This document shows positions 633-19,916 of a stretch of DNA of 64,000 nt, piece by piece. Where the stretch lies: positions 248,001 to 312,000 of the forward strand of contig NZ_FUXP01000001.1 of assembly GCF_900167055.1 (NCBI RefSeq), read 5' to 3'. A model generated the notes under the pieces. The model was not told the origin of the DNA and did not search any database. It saw only the letters and a program-made list of their open reading frames with translations. The position numbers and the translations under genes are program-made. Source of the DNA: Lysobacter spongiicola DSM 21749. Lineage in GTDB: Bacteria > Pseudomonadota > Gammaproteobacteria > Xanthomonadales > Xanthomonadaceae. Within the stretch, counting starts at the first letter, position 1. Each line of letters begins with the position of its first letter.

Positions 633-1280
633 TCAGGTTGCATAGCGAGCCGCGGTCCGGCGCGACGTGAGCGCGATGTAGACCATGACGCTGAGCAAGG
701 CGGCATAGAAGCACCAGACCGAGATGAACCAGCGCGCATACACCAGATAGGTGAACCCCGCCGATGCCAGTGCCAGCACGCCGAACCAGCGGATCACCGG
801 CTGGCTCGACATGCCCAGCCCGACCGTCGTCGCGGCAAGGTACAGCGTCAGCGATATCGGCAGGAAGAAGTGTGGCGATCGGTACGCGAGGTGGCCTCCG
901 GTGGGGACCACCTCGATCGGCGTGGCGACCATGCCGAAGAGCAGGAACAGGGCGCTCAGAAAGCCCGCGACACCAAGCAGCGCCAACACGTGGCGCCGCC
1001 ACGGCACAGGCTCCAGTGCACGCACCGCCCAGGGGATGAAGACGGGCCAGACCAGGTGGGAGAAGACCGAATAGACCTGTGTTGCCCAGGCGCGCAGGGT
1101 GGGTGCGTCCCACGGGTAACTCATCCATACCAGGCCTTCCGTCGCCTGCTGGGCAGCGAACAGGAGCGGGATCAGGGCGAACATGCGTTCGCCGGGCGTG
1201 TGCGCGGCCCGCAGCGCAAGCACGCCGATGCCGGTGAGTGCGACGCTGGCGGTGAAACTGGCCGTGGCGGAAAAGCACAT
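633..1280 (-). CDS. DUF6629 family integral membrane protein
   Basis: The 215-residue protein begins MCFSATASF, the characteristic start of the DUF6629 family, and contains about six hydrophobic segments ending in a short basic tail. The function is not known; family members are multi-pass inner-membrane proteins. The start is well supported by an AGGAGGT ribosome site seven bases or so upstream. It lies 12 bases after the cyclopropane-fatty-acid synthase stop and looks like the last gene of the long operon beginning at 13784, suggesting a membrane-related role in that stress programme. Confidence 0.75.
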   Translation of the reverse strand: MCFSATASFTASVALTGIGVLALRAAHTPGERMFALIPLLFAAQQATEGLVWMSYPWDAPTLRAWATQVYSVFSHLVWPVFIPWAVRALEPVPWRRHVLALLGVAGFLSALFLLFGMVATPIEVVPTGGHLAYRSPHFFLPISLTLYLAATTVGLGMSSQPVIRWFGVLALASAGFTYLVYARWFISVWCFYAALLSVMVYIALTSRRTAARYAT

Positions 1281-1292
1281 GGTGACCTCCTG

Positions 1293-2492
1293 TCAGCGGG
1301 GTGCGACGTAGCCGCCTGGCACGCCGTCGCGGGAAAGGACAAGCTGCCAGAGTTGCGCGTTGCGGCTGCGGAACGCGGCCATGCTGGCGTGCAGGTAATA
1401 GCGCCACATGCGGCGGAAACGTTCGTCGTAGCGGGCCGGCGACCGTGACCAGGCAGCTTCGATGTTGCGGCGCCAGGCCTGCAGCGTTCGATCGTAGTCG
1501 GCACCGAAGTTGTGCCAATCCTCGTGCACGAACAGACCCTCGCTCGCGGCCGTTATCTGAGCCGCTGAGGGCAGCATCGAATTGGGAAAGATGTAGCGCT
1601 CGATCCATGGGTCGGTGCGGTCGGTCGACCGGTTGGTGCCGATCGTGTGCAGCAGCGTGAGGCCATGCGGCCGCAGGCAGCGGTGCACGGTTTCGAAGTA
1701 GGCGCGGTAGTTGCGTACGCCCACGTGCTCGAACATGCCGACGGAAAACACTCGGTCGAACTCGCCTCCCACATCGTGGTAGTCCTGCACGCGGATCTCG
1801 ACGGGAAACCCGGCACAACGCTCGCGCGCGAAGTCCGCCTGCTCCCTGGAGATGGTCAGGCCCACACCGCTGACGCCGTAGTGCTCGGCGAAGTGGCGCA
1901 GGGCCTCGCCCCAGCCGCAGCCGATGTCGAGCACACGCATGCCCGGCGCGAGCTGCAGCTTGCGCGCGATCAGGTCGAGCTTGGCGACCTGTGCGGCGTC
2001 GAGCTCGGTCGCCTCGCTCCAGTACGCGCAGCTGTAGACCAGGCGCGCGCCGAGCATGGCGCGGTAGAGATCGTTGCCCAGGTCGTAATGGCGCTCGCCG
2101 ACCTCGAAGGCGCGCCGGCCGCGCTGGCGATTGAACAGCCGCGCACGCAGGGCGTCCCAGCGGTCGGCCCAGCCGATGACGGCTTCATCCAGCCGCGCAC
2201 GCAGCAGGCGCGTGAGCATCTGGTCCAGCGCCTCGCAGTCCCAGGCACCATCTATGTAGGTTTCGCCGAGTGCGAGCGAGCCGTTCCGCAGCAGGCGGGG
2301 AAACACCCCGGGATCGTGCACGCGCATGTCCCAGGAGCGCGGCCCGTCGACAAGCACGTCGGCGCGTGCAAGGACAGTGGCGACGGCCGCTTGGCCAGGG
2401 ACCGGCCGGCGCGTCGGCGGCGTAGCTTGGGGGACGTTACCGGGCGGCGCAGCGCGGTCGGCAGCAGGGAGAGTGGTCTGGGACACGGTCAT
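1293..2492 (-). CDS. cfa: Cyclopropane-fatty-acyl-phospholipid synthase
   Basis: The 399-residue protein is a SAM-dependent methyltransferase of the CFA synthase family, close to the usual length of about 380-420. It would methylenate unsaturated acyl chains of membrane phospholipids at the inner face of the cytoplasmic membrane. Visible motifs are the YSCAYW segment with the conserved cysteine, the SAM-binding VLDIGCGWG, the SVGMFEHVG glutamate segment and LLHTIG. I chose the ATG at 2492 because AGGAG precedes it and it overlaps the MFS stop as ATGA. The first 50 or so residues are proline/alanine rich and low in similarity. CFA synthases protect membranes from acid, oxidants and metals, which fits the operon. 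Confidence 0.9.
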   Translation of the reverse strand: MTVSQTTLPAADRAAPPGNVPQATPPTRRPVPGQAAVATVLARADVLVDGPRSWDMRVHDPGVFPRLLRNGSLALGETYIDGAWDCEALDQMLTRLLRARLDEAVIGWADRWDALRARLFNRQRGRRAFEVGERHYDLGNDLYRAMLGARLVYSCAYWSEATELDAAQVAKLDLIARKLQLAPGMRVLDIGCGWGEALRHFAEHYGVSGVGLTISREQADFARERCAGFPVEIRVQDYHDVGGEFDRVFSVGMFEHVGVRNYRAYFETVHRCLRPHGLTLLHTIGTNRSTDRTDPWIERYIFPNSMLPSAAQITAASEGLFVHEDWHNFGADYDRTLQAWRRNIEAAWSRSPARYDERFRRMWRYYLHASMAAFRSRNAQLWQLVLSRDGVPGGYVAPR

Positions 2493-3672
2493 CGCTCCTG
2501 AGTCGATACGGAAAGTGGAAGCCCGGCCGGTGCGCGGCGTCGTGCGAGCGCGAGCATGGCCGCGGCAAGCAGGGTCAAGAGGAGGGTGGCCAGCGCGATC
2601 TTTCCCACAAGGGTCGCAGCGAAAGCGAAACCGCCGGCAAGACTGCCAAGCGCCTGGCCGGCACTCGTGAACGAAGCGCGCCACCCCAGACCGGTGGCCT
2701 CGGCGGGCCCCGCGGCGCGGGAGGTCCAGTAGACGAGCGCCGGCTGCAGCACGCCGCCACCTGCCGCCACAAGGACCAGGCCGAGCGCACTCGGCCACCG
2801 GCCCCCGAGCCAGGCGAGCAACGCGAGGCCGGCAGCGGTGGCGACGAAGGAGGGCGCCACCCAGGCGAATGCGCGCAACGGGTCGTGTCGCGGGCGGAAG
2901 ACGAGCGACTGGCTGAGCAGCATCACCACCCCGCAGCCCGTGAACATGAAGCCGAGCGCGCGTGCCGACAGGCCATCCACCAAGCGCCCCTGCGTCGCGA
3001 GCCCCACCTCGTAAACGCTCATTGCCGCAGCCGCCAGGGCAGCCAGCAGAATCAGGACGACGACGTCGCGATCGCGTGGCGAACCCGGGCCGGCCACGAC
3101 AATGGTGGAGGACCCGGTCGCCGGCCGCTGCGCTGCGGCTGCAAGCACGAGCACGGCAACGCCGACGAGGACCGGGCCGACCAGGCTGTCGTCGGGCGCC
3201 GCGCCCCCCCCACGCCGGGGCCAAGCAGGCCGCCGACCAGCGCGGCGCGGGTCAGGTCCGACAGGCGCTGCGAGCGGTCGCCCTCGCTGCCAGCGGCGCG
3301 CGAAGCGGCGGTCTGCAGGGCGGGGAGTGCGGCACCTGCGAAGATGCCCTGCAGGCCGCGCGCCAACAGCAGCATCGTCGTTTCCGAAGACCAGAGGAGC
3401 ATGATCATCGCCGCGGCCTGGCCGAGCAGGCTGAGGCGCACGAGCAGGTGTGCCGGAAGTTGGCGACAGACCAGTACCCAGATCGGCGCCGTCACCACCA
3501 TGGCGGCGCTGTAGACGGCCATCAACTCGGCGATCGCGCGCGCCGGCGAAGGCGACGAAGCCACCACCGTGGGCAGGACCGGCAGCACCGCACCGTAGGC
3601 GAGCGCGATCGCTGCGCTCGCCGCCAACCCCGGCCTCGCGCTCGCGATGCCAACGGGTTCGCGTCCGGCCAT
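2489..3672 (-). pseudogene. MFS transporter, interrupted by a one-base frameshift
   Basis: Two frames together encode a 12-helix major facilitator protein of about 394 residues. The N-terminal half reads from the ATG at 3672 through hydrophobic helices and the motif LLARGLQGIFAGAALPALQTA to LVGGLLGPGVGG. The C-terminal half continues in the next frame to the stop at 2489. The break falls at a run of eight C (eight G on the coding strand) at 3204-3211, and one extra base there restores an open frame. It is either a real inactivation or a homopolymer miscall. The start overlaps the hydrolase stop (TGATG), and the stop overlaps cfa by ATGA. The substrate is unknown. Confidence 0.7.
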
Positions 3673-4529
3673 CACCCGATCGCCTCGGCGCGGATGGCGT
3701 GGGGCTGAACCGCCTCGCAGAGTGCGTCGACTACCCCATGGCAGGCGCCCGGATCGCGCAGCCACGGATGATGGTCGGCATCCACCGTCACATGGCGCCA
3801 GAGCGGGAAACGAGCCGCCAGCTCGCTCACGCGCGCAAGCGGTGCCGTCGCGTCATGCAGGCCGTGCACACACGCTACCGGCAGGTCCGGTGGCAGAGCG
3901 GCAGCGTCGGCCCGCACGTCGTGCCGGTAGAGCACCTCCCACAGCGATGTCGTGGACGAGGCCATGTTGTGCAACACCAGGTCGCTCGCGACCTCGGGCG
4001 GAACGTTTTGCACCAGATAAGGCAGCCAACGGCCCGCCACGCGGCGAGTGACCAGGCACGCGAGCGCGGTCGCCAGCATGTTCGTGTACACCCAGCCACC
4101 GCGCTGGCTGGCGAACCATTCGATCGCGCCAGCGCGCGAGCCGTAGTCGGGCAGGCTGAACAAGCACAGCGCCTGGACCCGGTCGGGGTGGCGCGCGGCC
4201 AGGGCGAGCGCCAGCGCCGCGCCGAGCGAATGGCCGACGAGGACCCGCGGCGGGCCGGCCTGGAGGGTGCGTGCGAGCGCGTCGACGTGCCGCTCTACCG
4301 TGTAGCGGCACCAGGGCCGGGGCGAGTGCCCGAACCCGTAGAGATCGACCAGCTCGGTCTGCGCATGCCGGAACGCCGGTGCCACCGGCGTCGAGGTCCA
4401 GTAGCGCGTGGTGCCACCCAGGCCCGGCAGGAACGTCACCCGTAGCGACCCCCGGCCGAGAGACTCCACATGCAGGCGTTCGGGAAAACCGGGATGTGCC
4501 GGGTCGGCAAAGCCTGGCAGCGTGGTCAT
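3672..4529 (-). CDS. Alpha/beta-fold hydrolase
   Basis: The 285-residue protein shows the alpha/beta hydrolase signature: oxyanion region FLPGLGGTT, nucleophile elbow VGHSLGAALAL (serine), an acid in HGLHDATAP and the catalytic histidine in DADHHPWL. No signal peptide is seen, so it is cytoplasmic. The substrate cannot be told; lipid or small ester hydrolysis would fit the membrane-related neighbours (CFA synthase, UbiB). It starts with an ATG inside the ATGA overlap with the upstream periplasmic-protein gene, and its stop overlaps the MFS start, so it is translationally coupled on both sides. Confidence 0.8.
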   Translation of the reverse strand: MTTLPGFADPAHPGFPERLHVESLGRGSLRVTFLPGLGGTTRYWTSTPVAPAFRHAQTELVDLYGFGHSPRPWCRYTVERHVDALARTLQAGPPRVLVGHSLGAALALALAARHPDRVQALCLFSLPDYGSRAGAIEWFASQRGGWVYTNMLATALACLVTRRVAGRWLPYLVQNVPPEVASDLVLHNMASSTTSLWEVLYRHDVRADAAALPPDLPVACVHGLHDATAPLARVSELAARFPLWRHVTVDADHHPWLRDPGACHGVVDALCEAVQPHAIRAEAIG

Positions 4530-5008
4530 GGATTGTGCGCCAGCGTATAGGAGAAGCGGGCGACGATCAGTTCGGGCTCGCCAGGCACGCGCACGGTGGT
4601 GGTGAAGACGTAGCGCCCCGGGCCCGCGAGTACGAACACGGCGCCGTGGCTCATCGAGCCGTTGATCGACATCGCCCCGAGCGTGCGACTTATCGTCTGC
4701 CCGGCGATCGGCACGGTCGCCACGACCTGCACGTTTGTCGGACGCACCCCGTCGCGCATGCGCTCGACGACGACCAGCAGGTGATGTTCGCGCGCATAGT
4801 CCCCGCGCGGCAATCCGTGCGCGTCGCGCGGACCGGGGCTGTGGGTTCCGATCGAGGGCGCAGCAATCGCGCTGGGCACCATGCCGAAATACAGCGTGTA
4901 TCCATCGATATGCTGGACTGGACCCGCCATGGGCGCCTCGGTGGCGGACGCGCTGCCGACGGCCAGGGACAGCATGCCGACGAGGGACAGGACAAGGCGA
5001 CGTTTCAT
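4526..5008 (-). CDS. Small periplasmic protein of unknown family
   Basis: The ATG at 5008 is preceded by GGAGGAA and opens a clear signal peptide (MKRRLVLSLVGMLSLAVGSASA), giving a secreted protein of 160 residues. The mature part is beta-rich, with HIDGYTLYFGMVP near its start and a GSMSHGAVFVLAGPGRYVF segment. This pattern resembles small immunoglobulin-like periplasmic proteins of the YtkA/FixH sort, but I cannot assign a family. It sits 35 bases after the UbiB-like gene and overlaps the hydrolase start by ATGA. Confidence 0.65.
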   Translation of the reverse strand: MKRRLVLSLVGMLSLAVGSASATEAPMAGPVQHIDGYTLYFGMVPSAIAAPSIGTHSPGPRDAHGLPRGDYAREHHLLVVVERMRDGVRPTNVQVVATVPIAGQTISRTLGAMSINGSMSHGAVFVLAGPGRYVFTTTVRVPGEPELIVARFSYTLAHNP

Positions 5009-5043
5009 GGCGGTTCCTCCGGACATCAGTGGCGTTGTTGCGC

Positions 5044-6633
5044 TTACAGGTGGCCTGATCGCCCTATGGCAACGACGAGCCGCAGCGACAGGAGCGCTGC
5101 GCCGGCGAACGCGATGACGGACAGCCATGGCAGATGTCCGGCCAGCAGCGGACCGGTGCTGTGCAGGGCGAGCAGGGAGCCGCTCACGTACAGGCCCAAG
5201 GTCACCAGGGCCAGCGCCAGCCGGTTGCCGGTGCGCGCAAGCGCCTCGTGCGTGGGAGCCAGGCCGTGGTGGTGCACCGAGAACGCGGGTCGTCCGTCAC
5301 TCAGCTGTGCCTGTCGCAACAGGTCGGTGGCGATCTGCGGCAGCTGGCGGGCGGTGCGTGCCAGCCGCATCGCCAGCGGACGGCGCGCGGGGCGGCTGGC
5401 GTCGACGATCGCCATGACGTCGGCTGCCTGCGCCGACAGCGTGCCCAGCAGGTCCATGTCCGGATCCAGTGCCCGCAGCGTGTTCTCGACCAAGAACAAC
5501 GTGCGGATCAGGGCCAACAGGTGGGCGGGTAGCCGGAAGCCAGCGCCCTGCCCAATGCGTGCCACGCGCCAGATCGCCTCGGCAATGGACCATTCCGCCA
5601 GCGGGCGGCTGGCCATCTCGGCCAGGATCAGGTGGATCTCTCGCACATGTGAGCGTCGCTCGACCTGTGGCGGGAAGAAACCCAAGGCGATTGCCGCATC
5701 CAGCACGCCCTCGGCGTCGTCGGCCGCGATGGCCTCGACCATGCCGCCAAGCGCGAGGCGGGATGCCGGGTCGAGCACGCCGATCGAGCCGAAGTCGTGC
5801 AGGCACAGGCGACCGTCGTCGAAGAAGAACAGGTTCCCCGGGTGCGGGTCGGCATGGAACACGCCGGCGCCGAAGAGCTGATGCACGTAGGCATCGAGCA
5901 GCGCGCTCGCCATCGCGGGAGCGGCCGCTGTCCCATAGGCGGCGTCCAGGCGGATGCCGTGGCTTCGATCCTGGACCAGCACGTCGCGGGTGGCGTACGG
6001 CTCGACGACGTGTGGCTGGGTGATGCCGGGCAGGGCATCAAGCACCTTGGCCATGCGCCGCATGTTCTGCGCCTCGTGGCGCATGTCGATCTCGTCGCGC
6101 AGGAATGCGCCCAGTTCGTCTACGAGTTCGAGCGGGCGGTGTCGCTTGAGTGGCGGCCAGATCCACTGGGCCACGCGCATTGTGCGCCGCAGGAGCCGCA
6201 GGTCGGCCTGCACCTGGGCATGGATCCCGGGGCGGGTGATCTTGACGACCACGTCGCGACCATCATGCATACGTGCCGGATGGATCTGGGCCACTGAAGC
6301 CGCGGCCAGCGGCTTGTCATCGAAGCTGGCGAAGAGCTCTTCGACCGGTGCGCCGAACGCCTGTTCGACCATGCGCCTGGCCTGGTCTGCAGGAAACGCC
6401 GGCACGTCACTGTGCAACCGCGCAAGCGCCTCGCGATAGGGCACCGGCAGTAGGTCCCAACGCAGGCTCAAACCTTGGCCCAGCTTGACGAAGGTGGTGC
6501 CCAGCCCGACCAAGGTGGCGCTGACGTACGCGGGAAGCCGTTCGGGTGCGCGCCGGCGCAGGCGCAGCACGGCGGCCCCGAGCTTCAGTCCGGCCCAGGC
6601 GATCTGCCCTCCGCGCCGCACCGTGCCCGCCAT
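5044..6633 (-). CDS. ABC1/UbiB-family atypical kinase
   Basis: This is a 529-residue UbiB/ABC1 protein, close to the usual 500-560. It shows the KxGQ motif (VKLGQGLSLR), the alanine-rich loop (PLAAASVAQIH) that replaces the glycine loop of normal kinases, the catalytic segment FHADPHPGN and the metal-binding HDFGS. Two hydrophobic helices close the C-terminus, as in membrane-bound UbiB. UbiB proteins support ubiquinone synthesis or lipid-linked quinone handling by an ATPase activity. A housekeeping ubiB probably exists elsewhere, so this may be a stress paralogue. The ATG at 6633 lies 25 bases after the phosphoketolase stop; an earlier in-frame start at 6714 would overlap that gene. Confidence 0.8.
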   Translation of the reverse strand: MAGTVRRGGQIAWAGLKLGAAVLRLRRRAPERLPAYVSATLVGLGTTFVKLGQGLSLRWDLLPVPYREALARLHSDVPAFPADQARRMVEQAFGAPVEELFASFDDKPLAAASVAQIHPARMHDGRDVVVKITRPGIHAQVQADLRLLRRTMRVAQWIWPPLKRHRPLELVDELGAFLRDEIDMRHEAQNMRRMAKVLDALPGITQPHVVEPYATRDVLVQDRSHGIRLDAAYGTAAAPAMASALLDAYVHQLFGAGVFHADPHPGNLFFFDDGRLCLHDFGSIGVLDPASRLALGGMVEAIAADDAEGVLDAAIALGFFPPQVERRSHVREIHLILAEMASRPLAEWSIAEAIWRVARIGQGAGFRLPAHLLALIRTLFLVENTLRALDPDMDLLGTLSAQAADVMAIVDASRPARRPLAMRLARTARQLPQIATDLLRQAQLSDGRPAFSVHHHGLAPTHEALARTGNRLALALVTLGLYVSGSLLALHSTGPLLAGHLPWLSVIAFAGAALLSLRLVVAIGRSGHL

Positions 6634-6658
6634 CAGCGCGCGGCCCTGGCCGGCCGGC

Positions 6659-9123
6659 TCACGATGCCGGGCCCGTTGCTGGGCGCAGGATGGTGGCCGG
6701 ATCGCCTTGGCCATCCACTGCCGCCAGCTCCGCCTCGGTCAACAGGTTGCCACGGGACTCGCCGAGGACGCTTGCAGCCGCATCGACCACGTGCGCCCAG
6801 GTGCTGCGGTTGGCAAACAGCAGTCCTGGCACGTCCAGCGTGCCGCCGCGGTTGACGAAGCCCAGCGCCGCGGTCGTTGCGGGACCGGTGTCGAGCCGAC
6901 GCAGGGCCCCTAGGAAAGGCTCGGGCCGGGTGTGGGTGACGAATACACGCGGCCGCTCCGCCGGGAACAGCGCATGGACTTCGCTGTCGGAGTGCACGTA
7001 CTGCGCTTCCTTCGGATCGCGTGGCGCGCGGAACCGGCCGGGCTCGCCGAGATAGAGGATCGCTGCCGACACACCCCGTTCGACGAGACGCGTCTGCGCA
7101 CGACGCACTTCCTGCAACTGGTAAGCGCCCGTGGCGACCAGCAGGATCGCCGCCGTCGCCGGATCGCCGGCCAGGCAGGTCGCGCCGGTCACGGCCAACG
7201 ACTGGCCTGCTGTGGCGTCAGCTCGTGAGGCACCGGCCGCTTCGGGACCACGAGGGCGGTGACCGTGCCGCGTTGCGCGTAGGCGTGGGCAAGGGCTGCG
7301 GCAGCGCCATTGGCGTCAGGAGGAAACACCACGCGCGAGATGTCGGCCATTTCGCCCAGAAGCGCCTCGGCCATGGTCGGATCCTGGTGGGACTGTTCGT
7401 TCTTCGCGTTCTCCCATGTGTGGGAAGTCAGGACCAGCGGCACGCCCAGCCAGCCGGGCGGACGTCCCGCCTGGGCCTGATGTCGGGCGAAGATCAACTC
7501 CTGGCGCACGGCGCCGAGCATCTTCGGTGCGAACGCCTCGTAGGTGACCACCAGGTTCAGCCCACCCTTGTTGCCGAGCGCGGCGCAGACCACGGCCTCC
7601 TCGTTGAGCGCGGTGATGACTGCCCCGGTCGGTGATTCGGCAACGCCGGGCTCGGGCTCGTGCACCCGGTGCTTCATCGCGTCCAGGGTGCGGTCGAGCT
7701 TGTTGCTGCGCAGCTCGTCGGGATTGCCCACGCGCACGCGCAGTCCGGGGTTCGCTTCGGCGATGGCGACGAACTGCTCGTCGAGCGCGGTCATCGGCGA
7801 GCTCTCGCCGCCGGCGCCGCGGTCGGCAATCGCTGGAATGCGGGGCGGGTCCACCTGGCGATCGGCCAGCGCGTGGTCGCGCTCGCGAACCCGCTGCTGG
7901 TCATCGTGGCTGTTGAGTGCGGCAATGGCCTCCTCGAGCTCGGACGCGGCCACAAACAGCGCCGCGGCGCCTCCATTGAACAGCGCGCGTGCCTCGGCAT
8001 CCTTCGCCGGATTCCCGGGCAAGGGCAGGTTGTGCGAGGCGTTGGTCCCGGCGCCGGGGAAGCCGAAGCCCTTCACGGTTTCGGCGATGCCATAGGGCAA
8101 CCGCACGTCGATATCGGGGACTTCCGCGCCAGCTTGCAGGCGCGACTCCATCACATGGATGCCCCAGGCGATGCTGGCCGGATCGCGCCCGTCCAGCGCG
8201 ATCGGGTCAAAGCCGTTCAATCGCAGGTGCCGGTCCAGCCACCGCTCGCCGCCCTGCTGGGTGATCTGGCTGCGCTGTTCGATGCGCCGCCCGTTGAGGA
8301 TGATGATCGGGCTGACCAGCCCGCTGTCCTCGGCACGCCACCAGCGCGGCGCCCAGTCGCTGCCACGCTGTTCCTCGAACGCACCGTCGCTGAGGAATGC
8401 CACCAGGCGTTCGTCCTTGAGCGGCGCATGCACGTACTGCAGCTCGGCAAAGCCGAGATAGCCGCCTTCCATCACGCCCCCGGCGGTGTGCGCATTGACG
8501 TGGGAGCCCAGGGGCGACGCCGGCGTTCCGTCCGGATTGAGGGTGTAGGCGTAGAAGTCGCCGACGAACCGGCTCAGCCCCGCGTCGGAGCGGTCGTAAC
8601 GTTCGGCGTGCCGGGCCGTCATGTTGCCAACCAGCAGGTTCAGCGCGTCGATCGCCGCCACGCAGTGCCCCTGACCCATCATCCACGCGCGGGTGACGCC
8701 ATCCAGGGCGTCCATCAGCAGGTAGCCGGCATAGGCGGGCACCATGTTGAGGGACCCGCCGGTGTGGCCTTCGGGCGTGATCTTGAAGTCATCAGACTCG
8801 AGGGCCGCACCGTCGGTACGGACGCGCTGGCTGTAGGTCATGTGCGCCACCAGCCACATGCCGGCGCTGGTAACGCGGTCGGCCGCGGCGAATCGCTGCC
8901 AGGCGGTACCCGCATCGGGCGTGCGGCCCAGAGCTACCAGCTCGGCCACCATCTGGCGCACGCGGAGCTGGGTGAGCGGGTCATGTCGGATCACCCCGTA
9001 GCCGGCCGCCCAGTGGGCGAACGCGGGATCGGCCTGCCGGTGGGCGTCGGCGAGTTCAAGGATCCGCTGGCGCTCGGCGGCTGACAGCTGGTCGGCGGTG
9101 CAGCAGTTGAGATGCAGGTTCAT
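6659..9123 (-). pseudogene. Phosphoketolase (XFP) family enzyme split by a frameshift
   Basis: The two frames together encode a thiamine-diphosphate phosphoketolase of about 820 residues (family about 790-820). Such enzymes cleave xylulose-5-P or fructose-6-P with phosphate to acetyl-phosphate. The N-terminal frame (9123 to 7189, 644 residues) has DDFKITPEGHTGGSLNMVPAY and GQGHCVAAIDALNLL, typical of XFP_N. The C-terminal frame (to 6659) has the XFP_C pattern with YVHSDSEVHAL and GFVNRGGTLDVPG. The frame changes near 7190-7215, and one added base would rejoin them; no long homopolymer is present there. The glutamate region (LSDGAFEEQRGSDWAPRWW) differs from classical VGDGEAETG, so this is a divergent subfamily. 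The start overlaps the PRPP synthetase stop by ATGA. Confidence 0.75.
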
Positions 9124-10034
9124 GGGTCCTCCGTGGAATCGGTCGAAGCGGTCATCAGGCTCGATGACGCGGCGGCGAGGTCCGCACCCAGCGCGATCGC
9201 ATTGGACGGGTGGGCAATGGTGTCGGTGCTCACGATGCGGGCCAGGCCCGCTTCCTGCAGACGGGTATAGGCATCGCCGGCGAACACCGGATGGATCGCG
9301 ACCAGCAACGGCGGTGGCAGCGACAATCGACGCAGGTGTGCGAGGGTTTCCAGGATCGTGTTGCCGGACGACACGATGTCGTCGATCAGGACCGGGGTCC
9401 GGCCGGATACCGCCTGCGGGTCGGGCAGGCTCACGCGCACGTCGTAGTCGCCATGCCGTTCCTTGGCCAGCACCTGGTAGGGCATGCCGCACCGGGCCGC
9501 AATGTCGGCGACCCATTGTTCACTCTCGCTGTCGGGTCCGATCAGCACCGCGTCGGGGACCGTCTCTGCGATCCAGCGGGCCACGGCTGGCGTCGCCGAC
9601 ACGTGGGTCGTCGGGATCCGGTACAGCGACTGCAGGCGCTCGACACGGTGCAGGTGCGGGTCCACGGTTACCAGCCAGTCGAAGGCCTCTTCGAGGAACT
9701 GCGCGAACAGTGGCGTACTGACCGCCTCCCCTGGATTGAAACGAGTGTCCTGGCGCATGTACCCCAGGTACGGTGCGATCAAGCCGACCGAGCGCGCCCC
9801 GAACTCGCGGGCCGTCTGGGCAGCGAAGCGCAGCGGGAGGGCCATGGCATCGGCGTTGCGCAGGCTGGCCAAGAGCGCCACATCGGCTCCGGCCAGTGCG
9901 TCGTCCAGGGTGACCAGCGATTCGCCATCTGGGAAGTGCCGCCAAGCCACGGATGCAATGCGCGCCTGCAGGGGCTGGTTGATGGTGCCGGCCAACACTG
10001 CATCGGCCGGGAAGGGCATCAGCACACGGGTCAT
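9120..10034 (-). CDS. Ribose-phosphate pyrophosphokinase-like protein
   Basis: The 304-residue protein has the PRPP synthetase layout of two phosphoribosyltransferase-type domains and the PRPP-binding loop VLIDDIVSSGNT. Also visible are FNPGEAVSTPLFAQFLEE, VDPHLHRVERLQSLY and GPDSESEQWVADIAARCG. Classical PrsA would make PRPP from ribose-5-P and ATP. This one is a divergent paralogue, as its metal/pyrophosphate region is VDPHLHR rather than DLHxxQ. It is coupled by ATGA overlaps to the phosphorylase upstream and the phosphoketolase downstream, so it probably acts on the phosphoribose made by the phosphorylase. Confidence 0.8.
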   Translation of the reverse strand: MTRVLMPFPADAVLAGTINQPLQARIASVAWRHFPDGESLVTLDDALAGADVALLASLRNADAMALPLRFAAQTAREFGARSVGLIAPYLGYMRQDTRFNPGEAVSTPLFAQFLEEAFDWLVTVDPHLHRVERLQSLYRIPTTHVSATPAVARWIAETVPDAVLIGPDSESEQWVADIAARCGMPYQVLAKERHGDYDVRVSLPDPQAVSGRTPVLIDDIVSSGNTILETLAHLRRLSLPPPLLVAIHPVFAGDAYTRLQEAGLARIVSTDTIAHPSNAIALGADLAAASSSLMTASTDSTEDP

Positions 10035-11548
10035 GGAACCTCTCCAAGCACAAAGGGTTGCAGCGTCGCGGCGTGCTCCAGGGCGTAGGCCAGTTCTCCC
10101 GGCGACTCCGCATGCAGGGTCATCATGGGCTGTCCCCGCTCGACCGTATCGCCGATCCGCAGACCGGTCTCGAGGCCGGCGGTGGGGGATGTCGGGGCGC
10201 CGGCCAGCTTGGCCAGTTTGGCCAGCCTGCGGTTGTCGATCTCCGCGATGCGGCCCGATGCAGTTGCCGGGACGTCGGCGGTGAACGCCGCCCGTGGCGG
10301 TTCGCGGAAGCCTCCCTGGGCCTCGCAGATCGCCAGGAACTTGGCCAGCGCAGCTCCGGAATCCAGCACGCTGCGCGCGCGCTGCAGCCCGGTGCCGGCG
10401 CTGCTGCCCGGTGCCATGTCGAGCAGCACCGCGGACAGCGCCAGTGCGCGCTCGCGAAGGTCGACGGGTGCATCGGCTGCATTGCGCAGCACCTTGAGCA
10501 CATCGTGCGCCTCGAGCGCCGGGCCGATTCCGCGGCCCACCGGCTGGGTGCCGTCCGAGCGATGGATCCCCAGCTGCAATCCAAGCGCAGCGGCGGTGTG
10601 TTCAAGCCGCGTGCCCAGGCTGTTGGCCGCGGCCTCGCCACGCACCTTGGCGGTCGGACCCACCGGCATGTCGATCAGGACGTGGGTTGAACCAGCGGCG
10701 ATCTTCTTCGACAACACGCTGGCGACCAGTTGGCCATCGCTGTCGAAATCGAGCGGGCGCTGGACCCGGATCAGGATGTCATCAGCCGGGCTCAGGCGCA
10801 CGTTGCCGCCCCAGACGATGCAGCCGCCCTCGCGCTCCACCACCCGGCGCATCGCCGCCAGATCGAGCGCCACCGGCGCCATGACCTCCATCGTGTCGGC
10901 GGTGCCCGCCGGCGACGTGATCGCGCGCGACGAGGTCTTCGGAATGCGGTAGCCAAGCGCGGCCACGATGGCCACCACGATCGGCGTGGTGCGATTGCCC
11001 GGCAGGCCGCCCACGCAGTGTTTGTCCAGCACCGGCCCTTGGCCCCAGTCCAGGCGCTGCCCAACGGCGATCATGGCCCGCGTCAGCGCGGTCGTCTCCG
11101 CTTGGTCCAGACGGTCGCCAGCGCTGGCCGTGACGAACGCAGCAAGTTCCAGGTCCGACAACCTGCTTTCCATCACGTCCTGCACCAGGGCGAGGTACTG
11201 CGCGTCGTCCAGCCGGGCCCCGAACACCTTGGCACGGAGCGCGCCTGCCGACGCCGCGGGTTCCGCGTGCCGGACCCGGGCCAGTGCATCCGGCATGGGT
11301 TCGAGGAGCGTCCACGCGACCTCCGACAGCGCCACCTCGTCAAGTCCCAGCCTGTCGTCGACGACCACGTTCAGCGTCGCCACCAGCGTGCGCGGGCCGA
11401 CGTCCAGCCTCACGCGCGTCATCGCCGCAAAGCCTTCGGAGCGACAGACTTCGCAGTCGCGGTGCATGTAGACCACCGGCTGCTGATAGGTGTCGATGCC
11501 GGCACGGGTGACGCGCAGGCGGGTGTGGCCTGGGACCGGCGTGGTCAC
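10031..11548 (-). CDS. Thymidine phosphorylase/AMP phosphorylase family (long form)
   Basis: The 505-residue protein belongs to the glycosyltransferase family 3 phosphorylases, in the long form (about 500) related to archaeal AMP phosphorylases rather than the 440-residue DeoA. It shows the phosphate-binding DKHCVGGLPGNRTTPIVV, KTSSRAITSPAGTADTMEVM and a lysine-rich SKKIAAGS segment. It would split nucleosides or nucleotides with phosphate to base plus (deoxy)ribose phosphate. It starts with GTG at 11548, inside a GTGA overlap with the nuclease gene. An N-terminal domain of about 80 residues precedes the catalytic region and includes a HRDCEVCRSEG cysteine pair. Confidence 0.85.
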   Translation of the reverse strand: MTTPVPGHTRLRVTRAGIDTYQQPVVYMHRDCEVCRSEGFAAMTRVRLDVGPRTLVATLNVVVDDRLGLDEVALSEVAWTLLEPMPDALARVRHAEPAASAGALRAKVFGARLDDAQYLALVQDVMESRLSDLELAAFVTASAGDRLDQAETTALTRAMIAVGQRLDWGQGPVLDKHCVGGLPGNRTTPIVVAIVAALGYRIPKTSSRAITSPAGTADTMEVMAPVALDLAAMRRVVEREGGCIVWGGNVRLSPADDILIRVQRPLDFDSDGQLVASVLSKKIAAGSTHVLIDMPVGPTAKVRGEAAANSLGTRLEHTAAALGLQLGIHRSDGTQPVGRGIGPALEAHDVLKVLRNAADAPVDLRERALALSAVLLDMAPGSSAGTGLQRARSVLDSGAALAKFLAICEAQGGFREPPRAAFTADVPATASGRIAEIDNRRLAKLAKLAGAPTSPTAGLETGLRIGDTVERGQPMMTLHAESPGELAYALEHAATLQPFVLGEVP

Positions 11549-12930
11549 CGCGCATCCTCCAACTCAACGCGCTCCAGGTGCTCCGGCACACGCGCACGCC
11601 AGCCCAGTTCACGCTGCACCCGCCCGCGCAGCGTGTCGGCTGCGTCGGGCTCGCCGTGGGTGAGGTACACCACGCGCGGCGCGGAAGGCGCAGTGCGCAT
11701 CCAGTCCAGGAGCTCGCCGGCATCGGCGTGGCCCGAGAAGCCTTGCAACTGCACGACCTCGGCGCGAATGGCGACCTCGCGGCCGAACATGCGCAGGGTC
11801 CGCGCACCTCCAGCCAGCGCCGCGCCGCGTGTTCCGCCGGCCTGGTAACCCGCGAGCAGGATTGCGTTGCGGTCGTCTGATCCGAACGCCTCGATGTGGT
11901 GCAGCACGCGCCCGCCGGTGATCATGCCGCTGGCCGAAATGATGATCATCGGGCCGCGCTGTCGGTTGAGCGCCTTTGACTCCTCCACGGTGTTGACGAA
12001 AGTGGCCACATCGAACATCCGTTGGCAGTCTTCGTCCGAGACATGGTGCTCGTCGTGATGGGCGTGGTAGTGCCCGGTGGCGTTGACCGCCATCGGACTG
12101 TTGAGAAAGACCGGTACACGTGGGATCTCATTGCGCTCACGCAGCCGGGCGATATGAAGCATGAGTGCCTGGGCGCGACCGACGGCGAACGCCGGGATGA
12201 CGATCACGCCACCACGGGCGGCCACCCGGCGAATGATCGGCGCGAGCTCGGCCTCCTGATCGATCGCGACATGGGCCCGGTTGCCGTAGGTCGATTCACA
12301 GACCAGCACGTCACAGGCAGGAAGCGGCGTCGGCGGATTCATCAGCGACTCGTGCTGCCGCCCCAGGTCACCGCTGAAGTGCAGGCGCTGGTTCTGGACG
12401 TCCATGCTGACGTGGGCGGCGCCCAGGATGTGGCCTGCCGGATGGAAGCGGACCGTAAAGCCGGGCGCGACCTCGATGTCGAGACCGTAGTCATGCCCCT
12501 TGAGCTGCTTCAGGCTGCGGCGGGCGTCATCCTCCGTATAGAGCGGCCGCGGCTCCGCGTGCTTCGAGTAGCCCTTGCGCGCGGCGTATTTCGCCTGCTC
12601 CTCGAGCAGGTGTCCGCTGTCAGGCAGCAGCAGACCGCACAGGGCGACGCTGCCGCGAGTGCAATGGATGCGTCCGCTGAATCCCTGCTTGACCAGGGCG
12701 GGCAGGTAGCCCGAATGGTCCAGGTGGGCGTGGGTCAAGACCACCGCGTCGATCGATGACGGCTCGACGGGAAACGGCGCCCAGTTGCGCTCGCGCAGTT
12801 GCTTGTAGCCCTGGAACAGGCCGCAGTCGACCAGCACGCGCTGGCCGTTGGCCTCGACCAGGTAGCGTGAGCCGGTGACGGTGCCCGCGGCGCCGAGGAA
12901 CTGGAGAGTGGGAGTTGTTTTGTTGTTCAT
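11545..12930 (-). CDS. MBL-fold/beta-CASP RNA nuclease-like metallohydrolase
   Basis: The 461-residue protein has all metallo-beta-lactamase motifs: THAHLDHSGYLP, GHILGAAH and SGDLG. They are followed by the beta-CASP region (VIVIPAFAVGRAQ, SASGMITGGRVLHHI) and the C-terminal GFSGHADAGELLDW and THGEP segments. Proteins of this type (YSH1/CPSF73-like) are RNA endo- or exonucleases in the cytoplasm. It begins with ATG after AGGAG, 81 bases downstream of the DUF2933 gene. Its product nucleotides would be natural substrates for the coupled phosphorylase, but that link is inference. Confidence 0.85.
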   Translation of the reverse strand: MNNKTTPTLQFLGAAGTVTGSRYLVEANGQRVLVDCGLFQGYKQLRERNWAPFPVEPSSIDAVVLTHAHLDHSGYLPALVKQGFSGRIHCTRGSVALCGLLLPDSGHLLEEQAKYAARKGYSKHAEPRPLYTEDDARRSLKQLKGHDYGLDIEVAPGFTVRFHPAGHILGAAHVSMDVQNQRLHFSGDLGRQHESLMNPPTPLPACDVLVCESTYGNRAHVAIDQEAELAPIIRRVAARGGVIVIPAFAVGRAQALMLHIARLRERNEIPRVPVFLNSPMAVNATGHYHAHHDEHHVSDEDCQRMFDVATFVNTVEESKALNRQRGPMIIISASGMITGGRVLHHIEAFGSDDRNAILLAGYQAGGTRGAALAGGARTLRMFGREVAIRAEVVQLQGFSGHADAGELLDWMRTAPSAPRVVYLTHGEPDAADTLRGRVQRELGWRARVPEHLERVELEDAR

Positions 12931-13011
12931 GGTTGCTCCTGGGGACTGCGGCAGTGCCGCGGCATCAAAACGGGAAAAGGAGACATGGGTTGCACGACGT
13001 GCCGGTGGTCC

Positions 13012-13278
13012 TCACCCCGCCGAGCGGCTCGAGAATCGAGGCGACCCCTTGGCATCTGCATTTCTGTCTTGCCCGTGGCCTCCGTGACTGCCATGTCCCT
13101 TGTGCATGAACACATGCATGAGCGGGCACAGCAGCAGGATGGCCAGCGGCAACCAGCGGAGCGTTCCGGTGAGGTGGGCGCGATGCTCGACGCCCAGATA
13201 GAAGACAGCCAGCGCGAGGAATATCCAGAAGACCCAGCGTCGGGACCCCGACGCAGTTGGAGAGCGGGGGGCAGTCAT
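13012..13278 (-). CDS. DUF2933 small membrane protein
   Basis: This 88-residue protein has two hydrophobic segments (WVFWIFLALAVFYLG and LPLAILLLCPLMHVFMH) followed by a histidine/glycine run (KGHGSHGGHG), the pattern of DUF2933 proteins common in metal-resistance loci. The function is unknown; the His-rich tail may bind metal at the membrane. AGGAG precedes the ATG at 13278, which overlaps the MerR-type regulator stop by ATGA, so the two are coupled. Confidence 0.75.
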   Translation of the reverse strand: MTAPRSPTASGSRRWVFWIFLALAVFYLGVEHRAHLTGTLRWLPLAILLLCPLMHVFMHKGHGSHGGHGQDRNADAKGSPRFSSRSAG

Positions 13279-13784
13279 GGCAAATTCTCCTGAATGCGGC
13301 GTCCGAGAAGTCGTCGCGGGGTGGATCTGACGAACTTGCCGCCTTCCGCCGCGGCTACAGCTTCGATCAATGCGCAGACATCGTCGCCCGTCGGAATGGA
13401 GTCCGGCAGCGCGGCCCAAGCGTGGATGGCACGCTCCATCCGTTCGTGCATGGCCAGCAGCCTGTCCAGTTGTTGGCGGGTGTCGTCGAGCCTGCGCCGG
13501 ATGATGTCCCGCACAAGCGGGCAGGGACTATGCCGCTGCAGGCTGTGGCGGATGATTTCCTCGATTTCGGCCAGCGTGAAGCCGAGCTGCTGCGCCGTAC
13601 GAATGAAGTGCAGGCGCTGGAGCTCCGAGGCTGAGAACAGCTGGTAGCCGCCCTCGGTATGGGTGGCCGCCTGTAGCAGGCCCCGCCGCAGATAGTTGCG
13701 CACCACATGCACCGTGACGCCGCCCTGCTGTACCAGCTGGCGTACTGTCATCAGCGGCGGCGCTGATTCGCCTTTGCCCGTCAT
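13275..13784 (-). CDS. MerR-family regulator (MerD-like)
   Basis: The 169-residue protein has an N-terminal winged-helix of the MerR type (MTVRQLVQQGGVTVHVVRNYLRRGLL, then GGYQLFSASELQRLHFIRTAQQLGF) and a dimerisation coiled coil. Its N-terminus, with VHVVRNYL rather than the usual PxTIRYYE, looks more like MerD than MerR/CueR. A few cysteines exist (SPCPLV, DDVCAL), but the usual metal-binding loop is not clear. It is the first gene of the operon and lies directly behind a MerR-type promoter, so it is probably autoregulated. An in-frame ATG about 33 bases in is an alternative start; AGGGAG supports the one given. Confidence 0.8.
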   Translation of the reverse strand: MTGKGESAPPLMTVRQLVQQGGVTVHVVRNYLRRGLLQAATHTEGGYQLFSASELQRLHFIRTAQQLGFTLAEIEEIIRHSLQRHSPCPLVRDIIRRRLDDTRQQLDRLLAMHERMERAIHAWAALPDSIPTGDDVCALIEAVAAAEGGKFVRSTPRRLLGRRIQENLP

Positions 13785-13811: not shown

Positions 13812-13842
13812 AGGCTAGACCTGTGTCCCGCACACAGGTCAA
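13812..13842 (-). promoter_or_regulatory. MerR-type promoter/operator of the long operon
   Basis: On the minus strand TTGACC (-35, 13842-13837) and TAGCCT (-10, 13817-13812) are separated by 19 bases, the long spacer typical of MerR-controlled promoters. The spacer is covered by a perfect 9-bp inverted repeat, GACCTGTGT / ACACAGGTC (13818-13826 and 13832-13840), with a 5-base centre. The first codon of the MerR-like gene is 28 bases downstream of the -10, so the regulator should control its own operon. Confidence 0.75.
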
Positions 13843-13901: not shown

Positions 13902-16900
13902 TCACGACAGGTCCGCCGGCAGCGCAGCGGATATTGGCCGCTTCCTGGCCAACTGCCGCTGCTTGATCAGCGAATACAGCGCCGGAATCACCACCAGGGT
14001 CAGCATCGTGGACGAGACCATGCCGCCCACCATCGGCGCGGCGATGCGGCGCATGACCTCCGAGCCGGTGCCGCTGCTCCACATGATCGGCAGCAGGCCG
14101 GCCATGATCGCGACCACGGTCATCATCTTGGGGCGCACGCGGTCGACCGCACCTTCGACGATCGCCTCGCGGAGGTCGCGTGCATCCAGCGAGCGGCCTT
14201 CGGCCTGGCGCTGCGCGGCGCGAGCCTCCAGCGCGTGGTCGAGATAGATCAGCATCACCACGCCGGTTTCCGCGGCGACGCCGGCCAGCGCGATGAAGCC
14301 GACGATCACGGCGACGCTGACGTTGTAGTCGAGCATCCACATCAGCCACACACCGCCGACCAGCGCGAACGGCACCGACAGCATCACGATCAGCGACTCG
14401 GTGACGCGGCGGAAGTTGAGGTACAGCAGCAGGAAGATCAGCGCCAGGGTTACCGGGACGACGACGCGCATTTTCTCGGCGGCGCGCTGCATGTACTCGT
14501 ACTGACCGCTCCAGGTCACGTAGTAGCCGGGCGGGAACTGCACCTGCTCGGCGACGGCATCCTGCGCGGCCTTCACGTAACGGCCGAGATCGCTCTGACG
14601 CGTATCGACGTAGATGTAGGCCGCCAGCATCGCGTTTTCGGTGCGGATGCTCGGTGCCCCTTTCGTGACCTCGATTCGCGCCAACTCGCCGAGGGGCACC
14701 TGCGCGCCGCCGGGCACGGGCACCAGGACCTGGTTGCCGATACGGTGCGGATCGTCTCGCAGCTCGCGCGGATAGCGCACGATCGCGCTGAATCGCTCGC
14801 GGCCCTGAAGGATGGTGGTGACGATCTCGCCGCCCAGAGCGGCCGCCACCACGTCCTGCACCTCGCCCAGGGTCACGCCGTACTGCGCCAGGCTGGGCAG
14901 GTCCGGGGTGATGTCGAGGTAGTAGGCGCCGGTCAGGCGTTCGGCGAACGCGCTGGTCGTCCCCGGCACTTCGCGCACCACCGCTTCGATCTCGGTGGCC
15001 AACGCGTCGAGTTGCTCAAGATCCGTGCCGAACAACTTGATGCCCACGGGCGTGCGGATGCCGGTGGCCAGCATGTCGGTCCGGGCCTTGATCGGCATCG
15101 TCCAGGAGTTGGCCACGCCCGGGAACTTCAGCGCCTCGTCCATCTCCGCGATCAACTTGTCGGTGGTCATGCCGTCCCGCCACTCGTCCTCGGGCTTGAG
15201 GTTGATGACGGTTTCGAACATCTCCAAAGGTGCAGGATCGGTGGCGGTCAGGGCGCGGCCCGCCTTGCCGAACACCGACTCCACCTCCGGGAAGCCCTTG
15301 ATGATCCGGTCCTGCTGCTGCAGCAGTTCGGAGGCCTTGGTCACCGACATGCCCGGCAGCGACGCTGGCATGTACAGGAGGGTGCCCTCGTTGAGCGTGG
15401 GCATGAACTCGCTGCCCAGGCGGGATGCCGGCCACAGGCTGGCGAACAGGGCGACCAGCGCGATCGCGATCGTGGCCATCCGGTACCGCAGGACCACGTT
15501 GATCACGGGCCGGTAGGCCGCGATCAGGAACCGGTTCACCGGGTTCTTGTGCTCGGGCACGATCTTGCCGCGCACGAACAGCAGCATGAGCACCGGCACC
15601 AGCGTCACCGAAAGCAGCGCGCCACCAGCCATGGCGAAGGTCTTGGTGAACGCCAGTGGCTTGAACAGGCGGCCTTCCTGCGCTTCCAGCGCGAATACCG
15701 GAAGGAACGAGACAGTGATGATCATCAGGCTGAAGAACAGCGCCGGCCCGACCTCCCGGCAGGCGTCGATGATCAGCTGGGCTCGGCTTCGGGAGCCGTC
15801 GGAGCGCTCGATGTGCTTGTGCGCGTTCTCGATCATCACGATCGCCGCGTCGACCATCACGCCGATCGAGATCGCGATGCCGCCCAGGCTCATGATGTTG
15901 GAGTTCATGCCCAGCGCACGCATCGCGATCACCGCGATCAGCACGCCGACCGGCAACATGACGATCGCGACCAGTGCGCTGCGCGCATGGAACAGGAACA
16001 GCAGGCACACCAGCGCGACGATCAGGCTCTCCTCGAGCAATGTCGTGCGCAGCGTCTTGATCGCACGCACGATGAGATCGGACCGGTCGTAGACCGCCTG
16101 GACGCTGACGCCTTCGGGCAAGCCGCGTGCAAGTTCCGCGATCTTGTCCTTTACCCCGCCGATCACGGCCAGAGCGTTCTCGCCGAAGCGCGCAATGACG
16201 ATCCCGGCCACGACATCGCCTTCGCCGTCCAGGTCGGCGATGCCACGGCGCTCGTCGGGCACCAGTTCGACCCGGGCGACGTCGCCAATCAGCACCGGGG
16301 CGCCGCCCTCGGCGCGCAGCACGAGGCTCTCTATGTCCTCGATGCCGCGCAGGTAGCCGCGTCCGCGCACCATGTACTCGGTCTCGCCCATCTCGATCAC
16401 GCGGCCGCCAACGTCGCGGTTGCTCTCGTTGATCACCTCGGAGACACGGGAGATCGGGATGTCGAATTCGCGCAGGCGGACCGGATCGACGGTCACCGAG
16501 TACTGGCGCACGAAGCCACCGACGCTGGCGACCTCGGCGACGCCCGGGGCGGTGGTCAGTTGGTAGCGCAGGTACCAGTCCTGCATGGCGCGCAGTTCGT
16601 CCAGCGAATGGCGGTCGCTCTTGAGGACGTACTGGTAGACCCAGCCCACGCCCGTGGCGTCGGGACCCAGTGCGGGTGCTACTCCCGCTGGCAGGTTCTT
16701 GGTGGCGACGTTGAGGTTTTCCAGCACCCGTGAGCGAGCCCAGTACAGGTCGGTGCCTTCCTCGAAAATGACGTAGATGAAGGAGGCGCCGAAGAACGAG
16801 AAGCCACGGACATCCTTCGACTTGGGAACCGACAACAGCGCACTGGTCAGTGGGTAGGTCACCTGGTCCTCGACCACCTGGGGCGCCTGCCCCGGGTACT

Positions 16901-17054: not shown

Positions 17055-17055
17055 G

Positions 17056-19787: not shown

Positions 19788-19916
19788 ATCAGTGTCCTTG
19801 GGCCGACACGACGCAGGTCGCTCGGACGAGGGCAGGAACCCATGCCGTGACGCAGCCACGGCGCGAACGCACAGGACCGCGCCGCACAGAGGTGCGGAGC
19901 AGTCAGCGTCCGGGCA

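Follow-up and report, generated by a model that had tools for sequence, protein, structure and literature searches.

The phosphoketolase-acetate kinase pathway operates in bifidobacteria and lactic acid bacteria, and gene regions for the efflux of copper and silver (Cu/Ag), which comprise a resistance-nodulation-division (RND) pump, a P1B-type ATPase, a DUF2933 protein and a multicopper oxidase, have to our knowledge not been described as carrying a module of central metabolism. In archaea, the nucleoside monophosphate (NMP) shunt, or pentose bisphosphate pathway, employs adenosine monophosphate (AMP) phosphorylase, the reaction of which has been described, ribose-1,5-bisphosphate (R15P) isomerase and Rubisco (PMC8376864, PMC9700705). 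Here we analyze an operon of Lysobacter spongiicola DSM 21749 that combines elements of these systems. The operon occupies positions 633-13784 on the minus strand of a 64,000-nucleotide stretch (contig NZ_FUXP01000001.1, positions 248,001 to 312,000; hereinafter the window), and its core encodes a nuclease, a nucleoside or nucleotide phosphorylase, a protein related to phosphoribosyl pyrophosphate (PRPP) synthetases and a divergent phosphoketolase, to which an acetate kinase gene is linked. We propose, with moderate confidence, that this core forms a mobile module, induced by stress, through which ribose is salvaged from RNA and nucleotides and energy is conserved independently of respiration. 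The proposal builds on the protein families, folds, conserved catalytic positions, gene linkage and promoter architecture described below, from which we infer the substrates, the direction of flux and the induction by metals.

The phosphorylase has the N-terminal domain and the fold of the archaeal AMP phosphorylases, whereas it scores below the equivalog cut-off for these enzymes and is paired with a PRPP synthetase-like protein and a phosphoketolase, with no R15P isomerase found in the genome. The phosphoketolase shares its fold, its catalytic positions and a linked acetate kinase with the pathway of bifidobacteria and lactic acid bacteria but is only 18-21% identical to the solved enzymes and falls short of the NCBIfam cut-offs. 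As to the Cu/Ag-type efflux regions, the operon adjoins such genes, as its counterparts do in related organisms, and differs in that a module of central metabolism is added.

A published parallel to the core as a set comes from the soybean symbiont Bradyrhizobium diazoefficiens, where genes with the same annotated products, matched here by annotation and not by sequence, belong to two separate predicted operons that are linked to FixK2 and to low oxygen, in contrast to the single MerR-headed operon beside metal-efflux genes in Lysobacter. In the table for the fixK2 deletion mutant, the phosphoketolase and acetate/propionate kinase genes bll2518 and bll2517, a predicted operon, change by -10.0 and -10.2 fold, and bll3117 and bll3115, which encode a thymidine phosphorylase family protein and a metallo-beta-lactamase (MBL) hydrolase, by -6.6 and -30.6 fold; both predicted operons, bll3117-bll3116-bll3115 and bll2518-bll2517, have FixK-type motifs, and an oleate hydratase and an RND adaptor appear in the same table (PMC9104804). 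Genes for an MBL hydrolase, a ribose-phosphate pyrophosphokinase, a thymidine phosphorylase and a phosphoketolase are also listed as induced under microoxia (PMC6515984). The published signal is low oxygen; no observation made here concerns the link to oxidative stress suggested in a preliminary description of this locus. The same description knew of no described pathway with this exact set; the genes do appear in the tables of these two papers, although no pathway is proposed for them in the portions that we consulted. A full-text literature search, mostly without subscription papers, found none among the papers listed that describes the module by title or abstract.

The features of the operon, all on the minus strand and in window coordinates, are as follows (aa, amino acids):

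13812..13842, minus: predicted MerR-type promoter/operator, TTGACC-19 bases-TAGCCT with a 9-base dyad (pattern match, conserved layout)
13275..13784, minus: merR, MerR-family regulator, 169 aa (NCBIfam scores, alignment)
13012..13278, minus: DUF2933 small His-rich membrane protein, 88 aa (Pfam PF11666, 72.8 bits vs 21)
11545..12930, minus: beta-CASP metallo-beta-lactamase nuclease, 461 aa (structure match 2dkf, motifs)
10031..11548, minus: long-form (archaeal AMP-phosphorylase-like) nucleoside/nucleotide phosphorylase, 505 aa (TIGR02645, NF003338, fold 4ga5)
9120..10034, minus: PRPP-synthetase-like protein, PRK07199 subfamily, 304 aa (NF005537)
7189..9123, minus: divergent phosphoketolase, N-terminal and middle part, 644-aa frame (Pfam XFP, XFP_N)
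6659..7198, minus: phosphoketolase C-terminal part in another frame, 179 aa (aligns to residues ~640-821 of intact relatives)
5044..6633, minus: UbiB/ABC1 atypical kinase family protein, 529 aa (Pfam ABC1, 202.3 bits vs 22.9)
4526..5008, minus: small protein, 160 aa, signal-like N-terminus by eye (no Pfam match)
3672..4529, minus: alpha/beta hydrolase, 285 aa (Pfam Abhydrolase_1, 68.8 bits vs 25.8)
2489..3672, minus: major facilitator superfamily (MFS) transporter, frame-split, 206 + 221 aa (first part Pfam MFS_1, 43.7 vs 33.4)
1293..2492, minus: cyclopropane-fatty-acid (CFA) synthase, 399 aa (NF008686, 568.8 vs 400)
633..1280, minus: DUF6629 membrane protein, 215 aa (Pfam PF20334, 72.9 bits vs 27)

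The packed organization is evident: seven of the 11 junctions between distinct genes are overlaps (six of 4 bases and one of 1 base), and the remaining four are gaps of 81, 35, 25 and 12 bases. The coordinates, strand and dense packing were given correctly in the preliminary description, down to the largest gap of 81 bases; its count of twelve genes is right if the two frame-split genes are each taken as one, whereas the number of frames is 14.

Among the core proteins, the nuclease has RNase TTHA0252 as its nearest solved structure (2dkf, E 1.3e-78), and the HxHxDH motif of the MBL fold and the beta-CASP motifs are kept among 58 homologues. An assignment of this protein to the type VII CRISPR nuclease Cas14 was rejected, given its score of 348.8 bits against an equivalog cut-off of 800. 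The phosphorylase passes TIGR02645 (554.3 vs 434.6) and NF003338 (644.8 vs 434) but not the archaeal AMP phosphorylase equivalog TIGR03327 (437.1 vs 535). Its structural model (predicted local distance difference test score, pLDDT, 90.5) matches the AMP phosphorylase 4ga5 with template modelling (TM) scores of 0.88/0.90 over 498 columns, the archaeal N-terminal domain included, whereas pyrimidine-nucleoside and thymidine phosphorylases rank lower (TM 0.67-0.73, normalized by the query). The PRPP synthetase-like protein passes the PRK07199 model NF005537 (366.4 vs 322) and TIGR01251 (172.9 vs 113). Its 71 homologues conserve the motifs GPDxESxQWV, K.R.GD and DDI.S...T, and the family keeps the Lys and Arg of the flexible loop; the first of these motifs replaces the pyrophosphate-loop motif, which in canonical PRPP synthetases is SPDxGG. 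A housekeeping PRPP synthetase (Prs) is encoded elsewhere in the genome (384.8 bits vs 172.2 for the operon copy). For the phosphorylase family, a search of the genome returned one match, the operon's own copy; together with the CFA synthase, which passes its equivalog, this makes the earlier statement that all enzymes of the operon are divergent paralogues too strong.

The phosphoketolase passes Pfam XFP (136.5 vs 22) and XFP_N (43.2 vs 23.7) and remains far below the NCBIfam phosphoketolase cut-offs (best 120.7 vs 777). In the Lysobacter genome the gene (6659-9123) is broken into two frames that share 10 bases at the break. A model was built for the intact homologue in L046 from 17 sequences (pLDDT 78.5, with some stretches below 50); its best 20 fold matches are phosphoketolases, with TM scores of 0.62-0.68, followed by transketolases at 0.48-0.53. 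In a profile alignment, residues H64, H97, H142, H320, H553 and E479 of 8io6 align with H120, H153, H208, H364, H579 and E508, and these six positions are invariant in all 17 aligned homologues, that is, in the intact relatives of the frame-split window copy (17 of 34 frames were aligned, near-duplicates and truncated ones being among those excluded; in 8io6, five of the six positions were counted anew, and H320 was read off the end of an alignment line). The titles of Protein Data Bank entries name phosphoketolase mutants at H64, H142, H320 and H553; H97 and E479 we take to be catalytic as well.

The phosphoketolase is a single frame in all nine loci of relatives (8 genomes; 772-821 aa counted from the first matched residue), and a natural two-gene enzyme was on this ground rejected as the ancestral form. 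Relatives with an intact frame include Luteimonas granuli Gr-4 and Lysobacter selenitireducens. Several bases adjoining the break also differ from L031, so that a simple base-calling slip is less likely; coupled translation of two chains from the overlapping frames is conceivable. The MFS gene (2489-3672) is likewise broken; in L031, the only relative for which it was read, it is a single frame of 394 aa. Both breaks may be true mutations or assembly errors.

The genome has one acetate kinase match (C16:233870-234763), which lies on the operon's strand, 14 kb past the end of the operon, and adjoins a P1B ATPase; it scores 212.4 vs 22 with PF00871 and 213.1 vs 293.4 with TIGR00016. In L049 and L051 the gene order is phosphoketolase, UbiB, P-type ATPase and acetate kinase, and in all three same-genus loci examined (L032-L034) the P-type ATPase is followed by acetate kinase a few kilobases downstream. 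The layout in the window looks like this order with further genes inserted. A gene of the phosphotransacetylase (PTA) family was considered as a phosphotransacetylase and rejected because it encodes a malic-enzyme fusion (160.2 vs the pta cut-off of 311.2); as this is the only PTA-family protein of the genome, the linked phosphoketolase is the obvious source of acetyl-phosphate. The suggestion that the operon makes acetyl-phosphate is strengthened by the linked acetate kinase genes, which the earlier account did not mention.

Conservation of the core was assessed in phosphorylase-anchored loci, the best 80 of at least 584 relatives, a sample that is biased toward the query and in which the loci are not independent (L077-L079 and L083-L085 are alike in layout and nearly the same in identities); 27 of these loci are shorter than 20 kb and 53 are at least 20 kb long. 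Matches were counted with tblastn at E <=1e-8 over at least 30% of the query length, and some of those to MerR, MFS, UbiB and P-type ATPase proteins are generic. The PRPP synthetase-like gene is present in 73 loci, the nuclease in 61, a P-type metal ATPase in 43, the phosphoketolase in 31 and acetate kinase in 13, in 10 of them together with phosphoketolase. At 35% identity or more, these numbers become 72, 61, 38, 28 and 10, with 5 of the 43 ATPase matches and 3 of the 31 phosphoketolase matches lying below that level; an acetate kinase of any identity accompanies a strong phosphoketolase match in nine loci. The nuclease, the long-form phosphorylase, the PRPP synthetase-like protein and the phosphoketolase thus co-occur across many genomes; the lack of such co-occurrence would, by the preliminary description, have refuted its reading.

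Of the other genes, UbiB was found in 19 loci (15 at >=35% identity), RND in 16, MFS in 14, DUF6629 in 13, merR in 12 (12 at >=35% identity) and DUF2933 in nine. The membrane genes are peripheral, local additions, with CFA synthase in five loci, the hydrolase in three and the small protein in two. All twelve genes are present in only two loci, the near-identical L046 (Lysobacter selenitireducens) and L047 (a Lysobacterales metagenome-assembled genome). A small membrane protein without a Pfam match (L103:7240-7896) was also noticed in 31 of the 80 loci, the same count as for phosphoketolase; judging from annotated plasmid neighbours, it is perhaps similar to isoprenylcysteine carboxylmethyltransferases.

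The linkage can also be followed from the side of the phosphoketolase. This gene is present in 13 of 398 genomes of the phylum, L. spongiicola included; the 12 others hold 13 copies, 11 of which have a nuclease, phosphorylase or PRPP synthetase-like partner within the stretch fetched (two in G046, and those of G066, G482 and seven genomes of one family). Four of the five other phosphoketolase loci from a sample of the class were examined, with the exception of G139, which is a partial match: acetate kinase adjoins the phosphoketolase in three (G077, G084 and G123), and the fourth is a 9.8-kb contig.

The surroundings of the operon point to metal efflux. The operon is preceded on its own strand by genes for an ACR_tran RND pump (13902-17243) and a CusB-type HlyD_D23 adaptor (17056-18468), together with one for an outer-membrane efflux protein (18465-19859); a copper-type P1B ATPase occupies window positions 21531-23903, and two more MerR-family genes are found at 23900-24298 and 45037-45444. 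If a P-type ATPase, RND, CusB, multicopper oxidase or DUF2933 gene is counted as a metal marker, 47 of the 80 loci have at least one, and so do 38 of the 53 that are 20 kb or longer (43 and 35, respectively, at >=35% identity). As background, 21 genomes contain 66 heavy-metal P-type ATPases above the cut-off, about three per genome, so that they would be expected in about 2% of loci; binomial figures derived from these counts, like the hypergeometric one given below, presuppose independent loci or records, which they are not. At the level of the neighbourhood, then, the suspected connection with metals is borne out.

Several observations indicate that the module is mobile. A high-identity phosphorylase is found in 4 of 10 same-genus genomes, and that of G029, which belongs to another genus, is 97% identical compared with 91-94% within the genus, a sign of transfer. 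Among plasmid records, 115 carry the phosphorylase (46 typed as conjugative) and 15 the phosphoketolase (10 conjugative). At least 12 of these 15 also carry the phosphorylase, a lower bound as only the best 40 of the 115 phosphorylase plasmids were compared, and in 11 the two genes lie within about 10 kb of each other by coordinates; the hypergeometric P for this overlap would be 6e-32 if the records were independent. In 14 of the 15 records the phosphoketolase is labelled 'xylulose 5-phosphate 3-epimerase'. In eight of the nine annotated plasmid stretches, one or more neighbours are of metal type, namely a P-type ATPase, DUF2933, multicopper oxidase or CueR, whereas none was seen among the listed genes of the Leisingera stretch.

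Other neighbours vary: on Rhizobium rosettiformans plasmid p2 (L133) they are ornithine carbamoyltransferase, carbamate kinase, adenylate kinase and a universal stress protein, the carbamate kinase neighbourhood being possibly another respiration-independent source of ATP; one plasmid copy is adjoined by polyphosphate kinase 2 and a type II glyceraldehyde-3-phosphate dehydrogenase (GAPDH), a second type of this enzyme, and two Variovorax copies by oleate hydratase. No close plasmid copy of the whole operon was found (best megablast coverage 12%), and a megablast search of a phage collection gave no match.

The operon is probably headed by a MerR-type promoter, with merR as the first gene of the unit, a function predicted from the architecture of the family: a spacer of 19-20 bases with a central dyad is characteristic of MerR-activated promoters, and minus-strand bases 13842-13812, ahead of merR, have this form. 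Among the 12 loci with a merR match, the six whose merR reaches 85% identity (L046-L051) all keep the layout; the upstream stretch is identical among L046, L047 and L050, and the other three diverge from one another further upstream. The window contains one other -35/-10 pattern match, the dyad of which is just 3 bases. The regulator has conserved cysteines in SPCPLVRD and in (D)VCALIE and scores below all metal-type NCBIfam equivalogs listed, at 53-72 bits against cut-offs of 143-168 (ZntR-type 72.3 vs 143, MerR 71.6 vs 150.85, CueR 57.5 vs 147.4, CadR 53.4 vs 151.45).

With regard to oxygen, the 80 loci contain 36 perfect FNR-type boxes (TTGAYNNNNRTCAA) compared with 5.7 expected from three Markov shuffles. 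Such boxes lie ahead of some core genes in L055, L057, L059, L076 and L100 and ahead of merR-like genes in L089-L091; downstream of the operon in the Lysobacter genome, a single perfect site lies past the 3' end of the acetate kinase gene (L143:4716).

Taken as a pathway, the core would work as follows. The nuclease would help to degrade RNA, and the phosphorylase would cleave nucleotides or nucleosides with phosphate to yield the base and ribose phosphate. The latter could be drawn into PRPP synthesis and, by way of the ordinary pentose-phosphate isomerases, which give xylulose 5-phosphate, could reach the phosphoketolase; this enzyme would produce glyceraldehyde 3-phosphate and acetyl-phosphate, which acetate kinase would turn into ATP. 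In some bacteria, low oxygen may switch the module on through FNR/FixK-type regulators, and in Lysobacter a MerR-type promoter beside metal-efflux genes would fit a need for respiration-independent ATP under metal poisoning. Copper and silver hamper respiration, and the module may have been selected together with metal efflux for this reason.

A number of observations weigh against this proposal. The largest hole is the missing link between the phosphorylase product and the pentose phosphates: no R15P isomerase was found in the genome, the sole IF-2B-family protein of which was tried as a candidate and rejected as MtnA (481.9 vs 271, with 202.8 vs 314.1 for the R15P isomerase model), and no DeoB phosphopentomutase was found there either. 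The frame-split phosphoketolase may mean that the pathway does not work in this genome and is perhaps decaying. The linkage is incomplete in other genomes as well. No phosphoketolase match was detected in 49 of the 80 loci, some of which are ended by the contig; of the 31 matches, three are weak, with an identity of 23-27%. In a class sample of 143 genomes, L. spongiicola included, 38 have the phosphorylase, six the phosphoketolase and four both (E <=1e-80 and E <=1e-30, respectively). The seven genomes of one family (L154-L160) pair the phosphoketolase only with a divergently oriented beta-CASP-like gene of 33-42% identity, with no phosphorylase in the stretch fetched around it, and in G331 and G366 that stretch holds no core partner. 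G077 and G084 have phosphoketolase and acetate kinase without a phosphorylase match, which makes this pair an independent sub-module.

The regulatory evidence has its own gaps. FNR-type boxes are no richer ahead of core genes (5/241) than ahead of other genes in the same loci (6/126), and none, allowing up to one mismatch, precedes the operon in the window. The Bradyrhizobium genes correspond by annotation only, and PMC6515984 marks them '-' in its FixK2-target and bacteroid columns. Finally, merR and DUF2933 were not found ahead of the nuclease in any of the three same-genus relatives that carry the core (L032-L034; G002, G004, G007). The description of the operon as MerR-driven thus applies to the promoter that heads it here and is a local trait. 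Our confidence in the module is unchanged by these loci because it is the conserved core, and not control by MerR, that carries the explanation. In two of the loci, the space between RND pump and nuclease holds a P-type ATPase fragment (L032 15381-15815, L033 13304-13738; 84% identical to the L046 ATPase), which looks like the remnant of a deletion.

Two further explanations, each of which we regard as unlikely, have to be considered. The island might supply metal-tolerant spare parts that replace, each on its own, housekeeping enzymes inactivated by Cu/Ag, namely PRPP synthetase, GAPDH, RNase and UbiB. This would suit the frequency of P-type metal ATPases and of any metal marker (43 and 47 of the 80 loci; 38 and 43 at >=35% identity), the GAPDH-like genes in nine loci, the UbiB paralogues in 19 and the housekeeping Prs encoded elsewhere. 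However, the phosphorylase, phosphoketolase and acetate kinase have no obvious housekeeping counterpart to replace, the phosphorylase-PRPP synthetase-like and phosphoketolase-acetate kinase pairs recur also without a detected metal marker, and the signal published for Bradyrhizobium is oxygen and not metal. It is similarly improbable that the genes control nucleotide pools and RNA turnover for dormancy, with the phosphorylase and the PRPP synthetase-like protein tuning nucleotide and PRPP levels and the nuclease cutting RNA, without net energy gain. The intact nuclease motifs are compatible with such a role, and the phosphorylase-PRPP synthetase-like link is the tightest of all (73/80, far above the 31/80 for phosphoketolase); the pairing of phosphoketolase with acetate kinase and neighbours such as carbamate kinase would nevertheless be left unexplained. 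That low-oxygen-regulated genes merely gathered on metal islands without a joint function appears very unlikely, for although locus composition is highly variable, with the twelve-gene set in just two of 80 loci, UbiB, CFA and DUF6629 genes coming and going, and oleate hydratase in two Variovorax copies, the same core is re-associated in differing orders, clades and plasmids, and the Bradyrhizobium genes of the same annotation share one regulator's table despite belonging to two predicted operons.

Within the energy-conserving module, the gap after the phosphorylase could be closed if this enzyme and the PRK07199 protein formed a bacterial NMP shunt that dispenses with R15P isomerase, a possibility that we consider doubtful. 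The phosphorylase would convert NMPs to R15P, which would take the place of ribose 5-phosphate (R5P) as the substrate of the PRK07199 protein, the pyrophosphate loop of which is altered; the product, either PRPP or R5P with the gain of a phosphoryl bond, would feed the phosphoketolase.

Among the remaining features of the window, the second part of the MFS transporter has no Pfam match, the 179-aa C-terminal frame of the phosphoketolase taken alone matches neither Pfam nor NCBIfam, and the UbiB/ABC1 protein falls below the NCBIfam UbiB equivalog cut-off (290 vs 487.55). Neither an Rfam family at the gathering threshold nor a tRNA was found in the 64-kb window. Just downstream of the operon (L143 11720-19990; G000:C16:228101-248100) lies a second cluster of complex I-like membrane subunits (NuoA, H, J, K, L, M and N-like), with a long frame rich in His, Met and Asp between NuoA and NuoH; no further Nuo subunit was recognized among its listed frames, and the NuoC match of the genome lies elsewhere. 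A Rhodococcus pyridinivorans plasmid has the same Nuo-like gene order, flanked by IS3 transposases, and encodes a NuoH-like protein 83.5% identical over 80%; the 14 plasmid records that match the cluster are all from actinobacterial genera, so that it looks like a case of transfer between phyla.

If the PRK07199 protein indeed acts on R15P, the core would amount to a self-contained path of fermentation from RNA to ATP that spreads on copper-resistance elements. If the module conserves energy as proposed, a shared cause, the loss of respiratory ATP, would explain both why the core travels with metal efflux and why the Bradyrhizobium genes of the same name respond to oxygen. It would also provide a function for the phosphoketolase-like family commonly labelled 'xylulose 5-phosphate 3-epimerase' and for the PRK07199 subfamily of PRPP synthetases.

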